NCBI GenBank assembly: GCA_002280815.1
Contig: NCET01000014.1
Span: forward strand, 1-35,014
DNA length: 35,014 nt
DNA from: Flavobacteriales bacterium 32-34-25
GTDB taxonomy: Bacteria > Bacteroidota > Bacteroidia > Flavobacteriales > Flavobacteriaceae
Reading direction: 5' to 3'
Shown here: in pieces, positions 29,058 through 35,014 of the stretch
Layout: each line of letters opens with the position of its first letter
Position numbering within the stretch: position 1 is the first letter of the stretch
Made by a program: the position numbers and the translations under genes
The notes under the pieces: model-generated
Database searches by the model: none
Told to the model about the DNA's origin: nothing
Seen by the model: only the letters and a program-made list of their open reading frames with translations

Positions 29058-30971
29058 ATGAAAATAGAAACTGTACACATAAAAAACTTCCGCTCATTCA
29101 AGGATGATACCATACATTTTGATGATTATACTTGTTTGGTTGGAGCAAATGGTGCAGGAAAGTCAACAGTATTTACAGCTTTGCAAGTTTTCTTTAGACA
29201 TTATAAAGACAGTAAAACTGATTTGAGTAAACTTACTGAAAAAGATTTTCATCATTGCAATACTGCCGAACCTATTGAAATTACAGTAACATTTACAGAT
29301 TTAAGCGAACAAGCCCAAGAAGATTTAAGTAATTATGCTCGACAAGGAAAGTTAATTGTAACCGCCAAAGCAGAATTCAATGAAGTTTCACAAAGAGCTG
29401 AAATAAAGCAATTTGGGAGTAGATTAGGATTTGATGATTTTAGAGAATTTTTTGAATTAGAAAAAGGTACAGCCAAAGCAGCTGATTTAAATGAGTGTTA
29501 CAGTAAATTACAAGTTAAATTTCCAGAATTACCAAATGCAGGTTCAAAAGATGCCAAAATTGCAGCACTAAAAGAATACGAAGCAGCAAGACCAGACGAA
29601 TGTATCTTAATACCAAGTGAAGACCAATTTTATGGAGCGTCTAAAGGTGCAAATCGACTGGCTCCTCATATTCAATGGGTATTTGTTTCAGCTTCAAAAG
29701 ATGTTACAGAAGAAGGAGAAGAAAATAAAACTTCCGCTTTAGGAACATTACTATCGAGAACAGTTAGAGCCAAAGTTAATTTTACAGAAAGAATATCAGA
29801 AATCAGGCAAGCAGTTGATAAACAATATTCTAAATTACTTGATGACGAACAAAATGTTTTAGATGATATTTCAGCTTCACTAAAAAGTAAGTTAAGTCAA
29901 TGGGCTAATCCAAGTATAAGTGCTACCGTTCAATGGAAAAAAGATGCAGACAAAGCTATTAAAATTGAAGAGCCATCGGCAGCCATAGCATTAGGCGAAA
30001 GAGGATTTGAAGGAGAATTATCTCGTTTTGGTCACGGATTACAAAGGTCGTTTATGTTGGCTTTATTGCAAGAATTAAGTACAACCGATGATGAAAATGC
30101 ACCAACTTTAATATTAAGTATTGAAGAGCCTGAACTATACCAACATCCACCACAAGCAAGGCATTTAGCGGAAACATTAATGGATTTGGCAGGACTTAAT
30201 ACGCAAGTAATGTTATGCTCACATTCGCCACTGTTCATTCCTAAAAATAGTTTTGAGAAAATAAGAATTATTCGTGAAAACGGTAATCCAATAGAAACAT
30301 TAAGTTCAAGAGTTACTTATCAAGAACTATCAGATTATTTAACCGGTATTGGTTCAAAACCAGTCAATAATAAAGGAATAGTAGCAAAACTATTTCCATA
30401 TTTAAGTCCGTCTATAAATGAAATGTTTTTTTGTAGAGTTCCAGTTTTTGTAGAGGGTATTGAAGATATTGCCTACATCAAAACCTATTTAGAATTAATG
30501 GGATTATCAGGGCAATTCAGAGCATCAGGTATGCACTTAATCAATGCCGACAAGAAAAGCAATATTATAGAACCAGCAGCAGTAGTAAAACTACTAAATA
30601 TTAATGCCCTTATTGTGTACGATAGTGATACTGATGTGGAAGAAAAATACTATCATCAACACAAACCCGATAACAAGAAACTGTTAACCATTCAAGGACA
30701 CGAAAACGAAGACGAATTTCAGGCTGTAAATGTTGTAAAATCTAATCTTTGGGCTTGGAAATCAAATTTAGGTAATGAAGTTCAAAATGAAATCGTCAAT
30801 TGGAAGACTTATTTTGATGCAGCCAGTTTAGAATTTGGAAATGCTGGAGGACTTCATAAAAATCCTTTGGTTGTAGCAAGAACATTAGAGTTAGCTTGGG
30901 TAAAAGGAGAAACATCGCCTAACCTTATAAAATTAATTGAAACCATTATCGAATTTGGTAGTGTAAAATAA
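29058..30971 (+). CDS. OLD-family ATPase/TOPRIM nuclease
   Basis: The 637-residue protein has an ABC/SMC-like ATPase domain with Walker A GANGAGKST (29-37), the RFGHGLQRSFMLAL signature-like segment and Walker B TLILSIEEPELYQHPPQ (near 350-364), followed by MLCSHSPLFIP. The C-terminal part is a TOPRIM domain: VPVFVEGIEDIAYIKTYLE (near 462, the acidic Glu motif) and ALIVYDSDTD (near 517, the DxD motif). Proteins of this type nick or cut DNA under nucleotide control and act in phage defence, for example P2 Old, GajA of Gabija, and the retron Eco8 effector. The expected UvrD-like partner of Gabija is absent; a 17-codon stub follows instead. It is the first gene of the apparent defence island. 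Confidence 0.93.
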   Translation: MKIETVHIKNFRSFKDDTIHFDDYTCLVGANGAGKSTVFTALQVFFRHYKDSKTDLSKLTEKDFHHCNTAEPIEITVTFTDLSEQAQEDLSNYARQGKLIVTAKAEFNEVSQRAEIKQFGSRLGFDDFREFFELEKGTAKAADLNECYSKLQVKFPELPNAGSKDAKIAALKEYEAARPDECILIPSEDQFYGASKGANRLAPHIQWVFVSASKDVTEEGEENKTSALGTLLSRTVRAKVNFTERISEIRQAVDKQYSKLLDDEQNVLDDISASLKSKLSQWANPSISATVQWKKDADKAIKIEEPSAAIALGERGFEGELSRFGHGLQRSFMLALLQELSTTDDENAPTLILSIEEPELYQHPPQARHLAETLMDLAGLNTQVMLCSHSPLFIPKNSFEKIRIIRENGNPIETLSSRVTYQELSDYLTGIGSKPVNNKGIVAKLFPYLSPSINEMFFCRVPVFVEGIEDIAYIKTYLELMGLSGQFRASGMHLINADKKSNIIEPAAVVKLLNINALIVYDSDTDVEEKYYHQHKPDNKKLLTIQGHENEDEFQAVNVVKSNLWAWKSNLGNEVQNEIVNWKTYFDAASLEFGNAGGLHKNPLVVARTLELAWVKGETSPNLIKLIETIIEFGSVK

Positions 30972-31028: not shown

Positions 31029-31058
31029 GATATCATTCCAGTTTGCGCTAATTAATAA

Positions 31059-31216
31059 GAGCCTGTTTAAATTTTATCTAATACTTTTTACGGATTATTT
31101 TCCGCTATATTTCGTTAAATTTACTCAAAAATAAGTCTATTATTCTTTCAAAATTTGCCTCATCTATCGAAAAATAATCTCATAAAAATCTAAATATTTA
31201 AATTTTAAACAGGCTC
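31059..31216. mobile_element. 158-bp MITE-like element
   Basis: The element begins GAGCCTGTTTAAA (31059-31071) and ends with its exact reverse complement TTTAAACAGGCTC (31204-31216). It is flanked on both sides by TAA (31056-31058 and 31217-31219), a 3-bp target duplication. The interior is AT-rich and too short for a transposase. Terminal repeats plus a 3-bp duplication fit a non-autonomous derivative of an insertion sequence, such as the IS5 group, but the parent is not identified. It separates the OLD-family gene from the helicase gene. Confidence 0.75.
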
Positions 31217-31252
31217 TAACTTTTTATAAATTATTTTTTACCTAAAAAGTGG

Positions 31253-31307: not shown

Positions 31308-34300
31308 ATGAAAATAATTAATAACCAAGATGTTCTTTTAATTGACGAATTGAAATTAGCATTAAATCAAAACTCATCAATATATATTGCTACTAATTAT
31401 TTCTCCATTCCTTCAGTATTTGAATTATTAGAAAAATTAGATAATCTTAATTCTATAAAGATTTTAATAGACAACACTGATGTAGAAAAAGACCTTCGTT
31501 TTTCTTATGATGAAAAAGAAATTAAATCCTATCATAATCTTACTCAAAAGTTCAAAGCAGATAAGGTTTTCCAGTTAATCAAAGACAAAGTAGAAATCAG
31601 AGAAGGAAGTGTCGGCGGTCAAAAATTCATATTAACCGAAACTAATGCAGTAACAAATTACTTTATGTTGGTTCCGCACGATTTAAACCTTATTTCATTG
31701 GGAATAATGAGTACAGAACAGCCAATATTTATAAATTCTTTTGAAGACACAAACAATCAATACCTTTCCATTTTCAATAATGTTTGGAATAGCAGCAAAA
31801 GGGATTTAAAAGAAATAATTCTAAAAAGTATTACCAGATCTGCCCAGCAATATGCTCCGGAACAACTTTATAAATTCACACTTCATAATATTTTCCAAAA
31901 CAAGACTATAGATGAAATTTCAGAACAACGTTTAAGCAGAACTGGCTTCAAAGAAACAGAAGTTTGGAAAATGTTATTCAATTTTCAGAAAGATGCAGTA
32001 CTTGGAGCTATCGACAAAATTGAAACTTTTGGCGGTTGTATTATAGCTGATAGTGTAGGTTTAGGAAAAACGTTTGAAGCTTTGGCAGTAATGAAATACT
32101 ATAATTTACGCAATGATAGAATTTTAGTATTATGTCCAAAGAAGCTTCGTGAAAACTGGTTAATTTACAGTCTAATTTCTGATGTTAGAAATATTTTGGC
32201 TAAAGACCGAATGAATTTTGATGTGTTAAACCATACCGATTTATCTCGTGAAAAAGGTACTTCTGGATTAATAAATTTAGAAACCATTAATTGGGGTAAT
32301 TATGATTTAGTGGTTATTGATGAAAGTCATAACTTCAGGAATAATGATCCTCGCAAAAATACCGTTTCTCGATACCAAAGATTAATGCGTGATATTATTA
32401 AAACAGGTGTAAAAACAAAAGTCTTGATGTTATCGGCAACTCCAGTTAACACGAGAATGAACGATATAAAAAACCAAATCGCTTTCATAACAGAACAAAA
32501 TGATACAGCTTTAAGTGAATTTGGAATATCAAGCATTGACCAAACACTGCGTAAAGCACAACAAAAATTCAATGCTTGGCTTAAAGATAATCACAACGAA
32601 AATACGAACCGTGATAGTTTAGTAACCACACTTAATGGCGATTACTTCAAAATTTTAGATTTACTCACTATTGCTCGTTCCAGAAAGCATATTGAAAAAT
32701 ATTATGATATTACCGATATTGGGAAGTTTCCGGAACGTCTTAAGCCAATTGCTAAATATTCTGATTTTGATACTGGAAAAGCATTTCCACAAATGGATAA
32801 TGTCAATAATTTATTAAATGCGTTAAATCTAAAATTCTATTCACCACTTTATTTTGTTCGTGACGATAAGAAAAAAAGCTACGAAGAAAAATACGATTAC
32901 ATTACTTCAACAGGTTCTGTTTTCAGACAAGTTGAACGAGAAGATAGCTTAATTCATTTGATGCGAGTAAATCTATTAAAGCGTTTAGAAAGTTCAATCC
33001 ATTCGTTCCGACTAACATTAACTTCTTTGTGGAACCAAGTAGAATACCTTTCTGATAAGATTAAAACCATACATCAAAACGAGTATTTTGATACCGATTT
33101 TGATATAAATGAGGTAGAATTTGACGATGATAGATTAGAAGATTTAATTATTGGTGGAAAAGTAAAAGTATTGTTACAAGATTTAGACTTAGTCAAATTC
33201 AAAGAATATATCGAAGATGACAAAAAAAGATTAGAAGAATTAATTGCAATGGCATCTGTAGTTGACCCAACTCGAGATGCAAAACTAGAAGATTTAAAAA
33301 ATCTAATTATTGACAAACTTGAAAATCCAATCAACGAAGGCAATAAAAAAGTAATTGTATTTTCTGCTTTTGCCGATACCGTTTTGTACTTGCACGAACA
33401 TTTAGCAACTTGGTTGCTAGAAGAACATCATTTATATACAGCATTGGTTACTGGTGGTGATGTAAACAAATCAAATATGCCTAATTGTCGTTTAGACTTG
33501 AATTCTATTTTAATTCATTTTTCGCCATTATCTAAAAAACGAAATGCTATTTATCCTGACGAGAAAAATCAAATTGATATTTTATTTTGTACCGATTGTA
33601 TTTCCGAAGGGCAAAACCTCCAAGACTGTGATTATTTAGTAAATTATGATATACATTGGAACCCGGTTCGTATCATTCAGCGTTTCGGTCGTATAGACCG
33701 TATTGGCTCTATAAACGATAAAATCCAATTGGTAAACTTTTTCCCCAACTTAGCATTAGACAGTTATATCGATTTGATCGGTCGTGTAAAAGGACGTATG
33801 CAGTTGTTAGATACTTCGGCTACTGGCGATGATAATATTATTGACGAAACGGCACATCAAAATCAAGATTTAGAATACCGAAGAAAACAATTGAAACAAT
33901 TGCAAACTCAAGTTTTAGATCTCGAAGATATTGAAGGCGGGATTTCTATTACCGATTTAACATTCAACGACTTTAAAATTGATGCCGATAGATTATCTCC
34001 AGCAGAAAGAGAAGCATTTCAACTAACGCCAAAAGGTATTTTTGCACTAACCGAAAACAATATTGAAGATGGTAACAAAGGAGTAATTTTTTGCTTAAAA
34101 GATACCCATTCGGCTATGGATGGCGACAAGTTAAGCAACAATATTATTTATCCGTTTACTTTATGTTACATCACAGCTAAAGGGACAGTTTTTATACCAA
34201 GTGCCAACCCAAAACGTGGCTTAGACTATTATAAGAAGTTGTGTTTAGGACATTCAGAATTACTACCAAACTTGGTTGCCGAATTCAACCAACAAACCAA

Positions 34301-34475
34301 AAGTGGTCGTTATATGGAAGGGTATAAAGAACTGCTTGAGGTAGCTTTACAGCATTGCAAAGGAGTTTCTACAGAAATGGGGTTAAATTCATTAGCATTA
34401 CCAGGCATTAGTAGATTATCCAATAAAAGTACCGTTGCACCTTATGAATTAATCTCTTATCTAATCATTAAGTAG
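31308..34475 (+). CDS. PLD-like / SNF2-RapA-type helicase fusion, probable defence protein
   Basis: The 1055-residue protein has three parts. Residues 1-170 resemble a phospholipase-D-like domain (SSIYIATNYFSIPSVFELLE, VGGQKFILTETN, NDxWNSSK-like end), but the catalytic HxK is replaced by GQK, so it is probably inactive as a nuclease. Residues 220-480 carry helicase domain 1 with GLGKT (about 248), VVIDESHNFRN (about 334) and MLSATPVNTRMND (about 372). Residues about 660-830 are domain 2 with FCTDCISEGQNLQDCDYLV and RIIQRFGRIDRIGS. It should move along or remodel DNA with ATP. The same plan occurs in operons with DUF4391 and type III-like methylases; DUF4391 follows three bases downstream. 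Confidence 0.9.
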   Translation: MKIINNQDVLLIDELKLALNQNSSIYIATNYFSIPSVFELLEKLDNLNSIKILIDNTDVEKDLRFSYDEKEIKSYHNLTQKFKADKVFQLIKDKVEIREGSVGGQKFILTETNAVTNYFMLVPHDLNLISLGIMSTEQPIFINSFEDTNNQYLSIFNNVWNSSKRDLKEIILKSITRSAQQYAPEQLYKFTLHNIFQNKTIDEISEQRLSRTGFKETEVWKMLFNFQKDAVLGAIDKIETFGGCIIADSVGLGKTFEALAVMKYYNLRNDRILVLCPKKLRENWLIYSLISDVRNILAKDRMNFDVLNHTDLSREKGTSGLINLETINWGNYDLVVIDESHNFRNNDPRKNTVSRYQRLMRDIIKTGVKTKVLMLSATPVNTRMNDIKNQIAFITEQNDTALSEFGISSIDQTLRKAQQKFNAWLKDNHNENTNRDSLVTTLNGDYFKILDLLTIARSRKHIEKYYDITDIGKFPERLKPIAKYSDFDTGKAFPQMDNVNNLLNALNLKFYSPLYFVRDDKKKSYEEKYDYITSTGSVFRQVEREDSLIHLMRVNLLKRLESSIHSFRLTLTSLWNQVEYLSDKIKTIHQNEYFDTDFDINEVEFDDDRLEDLIIGGKVKVLLQDLDLVKFKEYIEDDKKRLEELIAMASVVDPTRDAKLEDLKNLIIDKLENPINEGNKKVIVFSAFADTVLYLHEHLATWLLEEHHLYTALVTGGDVNKSNMPNCRLDLNSILIHFSPLSKKRNAIYPDEKNQIDILFCTDCISEGQNLQDCDYLVNYDIHWNPVRIIQRFGRIDRIGSINDKIQLVNFFPNLALDSYIDLIGRVKGRMQLLDTSATGDDNIIDETAHQNQDLEYRRKQLKQLQTQVLDLEDIEGGISITDLTFNDFKIDADRLSPAEREAFQLTPKGIFALTENNIEDGNKGVIFCLKDTHSAMDGDKLSNNIIYPFTLCYITAKGTVFIPSANPKRGLDYYKKLCLGHSELLPNLVAEFNQQTKSGRYMEGYKELLEVALQHCKGVSTEMGLNSLALPGISRLSNKSTVAPYELISYLIIK

Positions 34476-34478
34476 TTT

Positions 34479-35014
34479 ATGATTAAGGAGTTATTACATA
34501 AAACCCTTAAGTTGCCCACACATTGTTGGGTAAATCAAAAGCTGCCTAAAACATTCTTTAAGCGCAATTTTGAGATTACACTATCCGAGAAAAAACTCTT
34601 GGAGGATTTCTCTATTATTCAACAAATGGAAGTTTTAGCATTGGTCAATCAAGAAACGGCAAACATTCCGTCTTTTACAGAGGCAACTTCAAGCTATGAG
34701 GAAATAATCATTTTAGCAGTACAAACCACAACAGAACAATTCGATAAACAAAAAGAAAAAATCGCACAACTCATTCAAAAGTACATTCCTAATCCGATGT
34801 TTCTGATAGTGTATGACAATAATAAACTGCTTTTTAACGTAGCCGAAAAGCGCATTAATAACAACGATGCTACCAAAAGAGTAATTGAGGCAGCATACAC
34901 AACTGAAACAATTACTAGCGATACCATCTGCCAAAAACAACAGCATTTTCTCGATAATTTAGCTTTTGACAAAGCTAATAAACTCGATTTACGCCATTAT
35001 TACAACCATTTTAT
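34479..35014 (+). CDS. DUF4391 protein, cut by the right edge
   Basis: An ATG three bases after the helicase stop opens a frame that continues without a stop to the end, 178 full codons. It begins MIKELLHKTLKLPTHCWVNQ and contains LPKTFFKRNFEITLSEKKLL, VLALVNQETANIP, YEEIIILAVQTTTEQFDKQK and FLIVYDNNKLLFNVAEK. This order (K-L-P start, LPK-x-FF-x-N, then beta strands with I-IL-V and FLIVY) matches the DUF4391 family as I remember it, usually about 220-250 residues. Function is unknown; the family is found next to helicases and methylases of type III-like restriction systems. Minus-strand frames in this region are shadows of it. Confidence 0.75.
   Translation, partial: MIKELLHKTLKLPTHCWVNQKLPKTFFKRNFEITLSEKKLLEDFSIIQQMEVLALVNQETANIPSFTEATSSYEEIIILAVQTTTEQFDKQKEKIAQLIQKYIPNPMFLIVYDNNKLLFNVAEKRINNNDATKRVIEAAYTTETITSDTICQKQQHFLDNLAFDKANKLDLRHYYNHF

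Follow-up and report, generated by a model that had tools for sequence, protein, structure and literature searches.

A SNF2 helicase gene and a DUF4391 gene conserved ahead of Mod and Res: a probable four-gene variant of type III restriction-modification

Type III restriction is presented as a two-gene system in which ATP serves mainly as a switch (PMC7913695, accessible text), and its cleavage is reported to require two inverted unmethylated sites and ATP, with one strand being methylated (PMC12707154, likewise in part). The nearest published relatives of the locus described here, as far as the accessible sections of the papers go, are the DUF499-centred systems with HKD-SNF2 helicases (PMC12839542) and the defence island system associated with restriction-modification (DISARM; PMC9142583). 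The available portions of PMC3710099, PMC2292703 and PMC12707154 deal with restriction operons containing SNF2 or HKD proteins, or with restriction generally, and do not describe the present gene set. The literature searched, which omits bioRxiv as a collection and most subscription papers, contained no account of the four-gene system and none of a function of DUF4391. Here we analyzed a stretch of 35,014 nucleotides from Flavobacteriales bacterium 32-34-25 (contig NCET01000014.1, hereafter the window), at the end of which a gene for a SNF2 helicase with an N-terminal PLD-like domain (designated HEL) is followed by a DUF4391 gene. In related loci these two genes stand in front of the genes for a methylase (Mod) and a helicase-nuclease (Res). 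The parts of this operon are known families, and the whole is filed as a variant of type III restriction-modification.

Scanning genome contigs for HEL confirmed at least 570 relatives, of which the best 80, corresponding to 79 loci, were used. Clustering of all open reading frames (ORFs) in these loci revealed a single dominant order, HEL–DUF4391–Mod–Res. DUF4391 was detected by profile searches in 74 of the 79 loci (a first count in narrower windows gave 68 of the 75 loci with at least 800 bases downstream), Mod in all 60 loci whose downstream sequence reaches 6 kb or more, and Res in all 50 where it reaches 9.5 kb or more. The original prediction for the window had staked its case on an association of the helicase–DUF4391 pair with methylases in other genomes, and this association holds. 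At the DNA level hardly anything separates HEL from DUF4391: the median gap is 0 bases, and 62 of 64 adjacent pairs have a gap of at most 30 bases. A search of 296 Bacteroidota genomes with PF14335, the DUF4391 family, gave 27 matches in 19 genomes including that of the window. All 15 near-complete matches outside the window's genome adjoin HEL. The other 12 comprise the window's gene and its continuation (two matches) and ten fragmentary or weak matches, which are mostly without HEL in the short stretch seen and include two fusion proteins (see below).

The operon is spread over several bacterial phyla, some archaea and many plasmids. HEL relatives were found in 105 of 72,556 plasmid records, and in 95 the match covers 80% or more of the query. 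Identity is just 27–28% in at least three records, which may belong to other systems. The four-gene order was recognized by annotation in plasmid records of E. coli (L183, 13959–22987), Lactococcus lactis, Acinetobacter and Listeria (the second gene of the last being annotated as hypothetical). The sixth record examined, a Halorubrum plasmid (L186, 27% identity), has neither the four-gene order nor an annotated methylase beside the HEL relative and looks like a different system. The plasmid carriers include a few in E. coli, and the E. coli operon matches 10 of 5,426 complete E. coli genomes; nine of these matches span 80% or more of the operon. An Erysipelothrix phage record (L182, 11938–20818) also holds the four-gene operon by annotation, with a "chemotaxis protein" in the place of DUF4391; drug-efflux genes are listed in the same region.

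Mod and Res are clear homologues of the EcoP15I subunits. In locus L016, Mod matches EcoP15I Mod with an E-value of 3.7e-65 and Res matches EcoP15I Res with an E-value of 2.1e-52; PF19778 was also found in this Res. A DPPY motif is present in 58 of 59 Mod proteins, and a loose PD..(D/E)xK pattern in all 48 Res proteins of at least 900 aa. Identity averages 26% in the target-recognition region of Mod, against 56% in the rest of the protein, a hypervariability that sequence specificity would lead one to expect. Judged by homology, Mod is a type III subunit of the N6/N4 methylase family, and Res, for the family as a whole, is its partner with an SF2 helicase and a C-terminal PD-(D/E)XK nuclease. 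Type III systems are defined by mod and res alone, whereas in this set HEL and DUF4391 precede them and accessory genes often lie between the core genes. Loci L028 and L031 carry a tandem Mod pair before Res, perhaps representing two specificities in one operon. In L050 and L052, from metagenome-assembled genomes named Melainabacteria and Caenarcaniphilales, Mod is split at nearly the same place (205 + ~418 aa). In L175 (G218:C38), HEL and DUF4391 fragments lie beside a Mod–Res pair, apparently as a decayed copy.

The window is one entire contig (G000:C558) of a 593-contig draft genome, so the truncation of its DUF4391 gene is an assembly end. With Res and Mod proteins as queries, both matching, contig C195 (L123) was found in the same genome, and its reverse complement begins with the final 99 bases of the window as an exact overlap. 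The joined operon reads HEL – DUF4391 – GmrSD – Mod – DUF4062 – SLFN_AlbA_2/HATPase_c_4 – Res, and its Mod matches PF01555 (N6_N4_Mtase). It had been predicted from the window alone that the helicase is followed after three bases by a DUF4391 gene running off the edge, that the set recalls a type III-like module (helicase, DUF4391, methylase, Res), and that a Mod-type methylase and a Res-type helicase-nuclease should be sought within 8 kb downstream. The ORFs and Pfam agree with the first point, the operon order bears out the second, and both genes are on C195. Res in this genome is cut short at 660 aa, in the final 95 bases of C195 as read from the window. These bases (L123, 1–95) form a repeat with 27 matching places in the genome including itself, several of them at contig starts, and it resembles the end of an insertion sequence. 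The missing third of Res, which would include the nuclease domain, had no match on C195 or elsewhere in the genome, in a search without a positive control. Since Res breaks in the repeat before its nuclease domain, the window's own copy probably cannot restrict through Res; Mod looks intact. The closest HEL relative, from Flavobacterium fontis (L054), is 83% identical, and there Res (22000) has an in-frame stop after 838 aa, beyond which Res similarity goes on in the same frame. In these two nearest copies Res is thus broken, and HEL and DUF4391 are open in both.

The window's DUF4391 protein matches PF14335 with an E-value of 3.4e-29 (102.8 bits against a gathering cut-off of 29.9, over positions 1–160 of the 232-position profile), and the model of its relative from L054 has a predicted local distance difference test score (pLDDT) of 96.9. 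Weak PF14335 matches were also found in frames of 1064 to 1288 aa in genomes G194 (above the cut-off in one search and just below it in another) and G284 (below it), both downstream of a full-length HEL and separated from it by a YhcG nuclease gene. In both, the long protein combines an Eco57I-like N6-methyltransferase and a DUF4391-like N-terminus, and that of G194 also has a TaqI_C specificity domain (Pfam check of two of ten loci). The ten loci with HEL and such a fusion (L191, L190, L217, L220–L225 and L212) come from nine genomes and one viral contig. The DUF4391 profile matches the long protein in eight of them at E ≤ 0.001, and the other two were placed by alignment. With hhalign, the ten N-termini aligned to DUF4391 over 175 columns (E-value 7e-10, probability 96.5), and the unrelated control, the PLD domain of HEL, gave a probability of 0.1. 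On these alignments, DUF4391 is homologous to the N-terminus of Eco57I-like methyltransferases linked to close HEL relatives. The viral contig (L212, 3714–11585) encodes a HEL with an intact PLD site together with the fusion.

We found no name for this pair of HEL and a DUF4391–methyltransferase. It shares with the four-gene operon a homologous DUF4391 domain and contains the nearest relatives of HEL; it differs in that its DUF4391 is fused to an Eco57I-like methyltransferase, its HEL keeps the PLD catalytic residues, and its fetched stretches, most of them ending soon after the methyltransferase, lack a type III Mod or Res. When a domain occurs fused to a protein in one lineage and on its own in another, this is classically taken to indicate a physical link. 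DUF4391 fits the pattern, being built into a methyltransferase in the fusion loci and encoded by its own gene ahead of Mod in the four-gene operon, and it therefore probably couples the HEL motor to the methyltransferase. A nuclease function of DUF4391 was considered and rejected, as no invariant catalytic pattern was seen; P13, K24, P104 and Y175 are the residues that are invariant or nearly so. The best hits of the DUF4391 profile to PDB sequences had E-values of only 0.86 and 0.93, and the VIA-align rows for DUF4391 span only its C-terminal helical hairpin. According to the accessible text of PMC7784981, DUF4391 is among the domains enriched in hosts nonpermissive for the epibiont TM7x (3/3 versus 1/10 in each of two other groups), a pattern that could reflect defence or mere linkage.

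HEL is assigned to the SNF2-like helicases by Pfam, PADLOC and NCBIfam alike. Pfam places SNF2-rel_dom at aa 241–405 and Helicase_C at aa 662–800, and the top PADLOC model is C3a139, "HKD+Snf2" (E-value 1.1e-119). The AlphaFold model has a pLDDT of 82 overall and of ~90 for aa 1–200. Its best Foldseek match is RapA (8so8, E-value 5.8e-17), and VIA-align superposed the SNF2 core on Isw1 (9jnp_K) with a Z-score of 19.6 and a root mean square deviation of 3.6 for 415 aligned residues. Walker A-like and DExH-like strings are present in all 75 family members of at least 900 aa. HEL is split into two ORFs after 672 and 719 aa in L040 and L049 (a Clostridium and a Methanosarcina), and the second pieces cluster together.

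The PLD domain of the window's HEL has no Pfam match at E ≤ 0.001. In the HEL family, 14 of 50 N-termini match PLDc_2 at E ≤ 0.1 (the strongest with 3.8e-6), HGK and GSSNF motifs stand in the corresponding alignment columns of relatives, and the best PDB profile match of the domain, although weak (E-value 0.025), is SauUSI (7clg) over its catalytic region. These matches point to a PLD fold of the HEL N-terminal domain. SauUSI, a type IV enzyme, likewise has an N-terminal PLD domain followed by an SF2 translocase, and its dimer is made by the PLD domains (PMC7913695, accessible text). Unlike HEL, SauUSI works as a single chain that includes an SRA target domain and whose HxK is active; in HEL the His is lost and no SRA family was found by Pfam.

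The PLD residues were read from an alignment of 103 HELs. HELs of up to 900 aa were left out, which removes L220 (fragments) and L225 (split); the N-terminal piece of L225 carries HGK and GSSNF. His and Lys do not occur together in any of the 82 HELs linked to Mod–Res (assigned by HEL family, with loci whose contigs end before Mod or Res included): the His is absent from all 82, the window's HEL among them, and an aligned Lys is present in 11. Both residues are found in seven of the eight fusion-linked HELs, the eighth being truncated at its N-terminus, and in all 13 more distant HELs, each encoded beside a methyltransferase-like protein. The catalytic degeneration noted earlier in the window is therefore a property of the whole Mod–Res-linked clade. 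In a tree of 55 HELs, containing 34 of the 82, the Mod–Res-linked HELs form one clade with a Shimodaira–Hasegawa-like approximate likelihood ratio test (SH-aLRT) support of 97, and the fusion-linked HELs are nearest to it. Since this one clade lacks the His and its nearest relatives keep His and Lys, the most likely course is a single loss of the PLD active site, either as the cassette became attached to Mod–Res or later, and Res has probably taken over cleavage from HEL. The fetched stretches of the fusion-linked loci showed no Mod or Res, with more than 1 kb beyond the methyltransferase visible in only three of ten. A search for Res drew on as many Bacteroidota genomes as the PF14335 search and matched in 44; G124, G194, G266 and G284, which were presumably included, are not among these.

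Pairwise distances were correlated over the 41 loci in which all four genes are full length. The correlation was 0.71 for HEL–DUF4391 (bootstrap 0.58–0.82) and 0.64 for Mod–Res (0.51–0.76). Across the two pairs it was 0.50 for DUF4391–Res, 0.44 for HEL–Res, 0.32 for DUF4391–Mod (0.35 without the Mod recognition region) and 0.30 for HEL–Mod. Adjacency alone is insufficient to account for this pattern, because DUF4391 and Mod have no intervening gene in 40 of 67 loci and yet correlate at 0.32. Compared with parts of HEL, the DUF4391 distances nominally follow the C-terminal region best, with Spearman coefficients of 0.708 for this region, 0.646 for the PLD part and 0.617 for the SNF2 core.

The spaces between the core genes hold 87 ORFs of at least 90 aa. 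The slot between HEL and DUF4391 is filled in 5 of 74 loci, that between DUF4391 and Mod in 27 of 67, and that between Mod and Res in 26 of 61. Forty of the 87, picked by size and cluster rather than randomly, were scanned (two against PADLOC only), and 31 matched a family. The matches include GmrSD, Septu (PtuA/PtuB), SLFN_AlbA_2, YhcG, RhuM, AAA_13 (a PrrC-like family) and a synthase of the cyclic-oligonucleotide-based antiphage signalling system (CBASS) with a four-transmembrane effector, as well as AbiE, AbiGi, HipA, KAP, macro and pentapeptide proteins and the PADLOC candidates PDC-S46 and PDC-M32A. Four embedded ORFs without a Pfam match (L041:13936-14829, L032:6545-8638, L030:16284-17852 and L018:18921-19994), the first two without a PADLOC match either, are candidate defence genes. 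Because the slots carry many other defence genes, they are a useful place to look for new ones.

We regard it as fairly probable that the two window genes are the front half of a four-gene type III variant in which DUF4391 docks the HEL motor on Mod and Res cuts. HEL and DUF4391 would form a subcomplex and Mod would recognize and mark the target site, and DUF4391 would dock HEL onto Mod. Powered by ATP, HEL would then travel along double-stranded DNA or clear it for the Mod–Res complex, and Res would make the cut. In this view the PLD domain would derive from an ancestral nuclease and have been retained as a dimerization or DNA-binding scaffold once Res took over cleavage; its fold may still dimerize HEL, by analogy with SauUSI. 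The roles given to Mod and Res follow from homology, the docking from the methyltransferase fusion and co-inheritance, and the motor role from what SNF2 proteins are known to do. From its family and the defence genes embedded in it, we infer an anti-phage or anti-plasmid function of the operon.

Several observations weigh against this proposal. The HEL distances show no correlation with those of the target-recognition region of Mod (−0.02). Twenty Res regions were fetched, and of the 14 with at least 9.7 kb upstream, 11 lack a true HEL (three of them hold a SNF2-like match of 25–31%), one has a HEL remnant and two have a full HEL, both already known from the PF14335 search of Bacteroidota. HEL–DUF4391 is hence unnecessary for a Mod–Res pair to exist. 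In a tree of 61 Res proteins, from which L177 and L178 were left out because they yielded no acceptable frame, the HEL-less ones require three changes; four of the ten fall within a HEL-bearing group, which fits a loss of HEL there. The switch of the PLD site is a single event on the tree, so its link with Res is without replication, and the grouping of the fusion-linked HELs has a low support of 34. With under 1 kb visible beyond the fused methyltransferase in seven of ten loci, a Res may follow there. The N-termini of the more distant methyltransferases match DUF4391 weakly (probability 9.5, E-value 0.0034), and Foldseek against PDB and viral models found no structural relative of DUF4391 at E ≤ 0.001.

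Some of these points would suit HEL–DUF4391 as an independent two-gene defence module that rides in type III operons without acting with Mod–Res: the two pairs behave as two co-inherited blocks, Mod–Res occurs without HEL, and the operon hosts other modules (Septu, CBASS, GmrSD). We consider this unlikely, as the embedded modules come and go whereas HEL stands first with Mod and Res behind it in 60/60 and 50/50 loci, the loss of the PLD site in 82/82 leaves the pair without a recognized nuclease of its own, and a DUF4391 relative is fused to a methyltransferase. A regulatory role, in which HEL–DUF4391 would for example restrain cleavage by Res during plasmid entry into a new host or during repair, is in keeping with the frequency of HEL relatives on plasmids (105 records), the existence of Mod–Res alone and a RapA-like fold that would suit remodelling. 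Nothing seen favours inhibition over activation, however, and HEL and DUF4391 stay open in both copies with a broken Res, that of the window and L054, so that such a role appears distinctly unlikely.

An affiliation with DISARM or with the DUF499-centred systems (Hma, related to type 2 of the bacteriophage exclusion system, BREX) was also considered, since HEL matches the DrmD, HmaA, BrxH and DpdE models. DISARM likewise ties a SNF2-like helicase to methylation, and the accessible text on the DUF499 systems describes an HKD-SNF2 helicase fusion beside an N6-methyltransferase (PMC12839542). The DrmD model NF038317, however, scores 167.4 bits on HEL against a cut-off of 610, and neither DrmA/DrmB (DUF1998/MZB) nor DUF499 or PglZ was found by Pfam among the seven own-genome operon genes. 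A genome-wide MZB search in the 15 genomes of the fusion and more distant pairs, the window's genome not being among them, gave one hit, on another contig. Membership in DISARM was rejected on the DrmD score and the lack of DrmA/DrmB among the scanned operon genes, and membership in Hma because the operon genes contain no DUF499 ATPase and the HKD site is lost (0/82). With a methylase and nuclease of type III in addition, a divergent member of either group is highly improbable.

The features at the end of the window are listed in Table 1. The OLD-type gene next to HEL had been noticed in the original prediction and is indeed present, but its placement in the candidate system did not stand: it lies 336 bases upstream of HEL behind a repeat resembling a miniature inverted-repeat transposable element (MITE), and blastp at E ≤ 1e-10 found no relative of it encoded in any of the 79 HEL loci. 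It was therefore rejected as a part of the operon. A further copy of the MITE-like element is present on contig C419 (84% identity over 163 bases).

Table 1 Coordinates of features at the end of the window.
Feature	Position	Strand	Details
HEL, RapA-like SNF2 helicase with N-terminal PLD-like domain	31308..34475	+	complete ORF, 1055 aa
PLD-like N-terminal domain of HEL, catalytic His replaced	31308..31907	+	aa 1–200
SNF2 two-lobed ATPase core of HEL	31956..33797	+	~aa 217–830; Pfam
HEL C-terminal region, proposed docking side for DUF4391	33915..34472	+	aa 870–1055; distance correlation
DUF4391 gene, cut by contig end	34479..35014	+	178 codons; 3' end on contig C195 (L123)
OLD-type ATPase-TOPRIM gene upstream of HEL	29058-30971		Pfam AAA_15 + OLD-like_TOPRIM
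MITE-like element between OLD gene and HEL	31049-31226		28-base inverted arms, 82% complementary

Descriptions of type III restriction generally count two genes; here a SNF2-type motor gene and its partner precede Mod–Res. The family is also a clear example of the loss of a nuclease active site in a lineage that has another nuclease. A broader reading, which we hold only tentatively, is that the SNF2 motor and DUF4391 form a general coupling cassette for different DNA methyltransferases. In one lineage DUF4391 would lie within the methyltransferase and the motor would have an active PLD nuclease; in the other DUF4391 would be a separate gene, the cassette would sit on a type III Mod–Res, and the PLD nuclease would have been switched off because Res cuts. 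If this reading is true, DUF4391 would be a methyltransferase-docking module and the operon would carry out a translocase-driven type III restriction by a mechanism unlike the sliding of EcoP15I. DUF4391, a domain of unknown function, thereby gains a testable role as a coupler of motor and methyltransferase.

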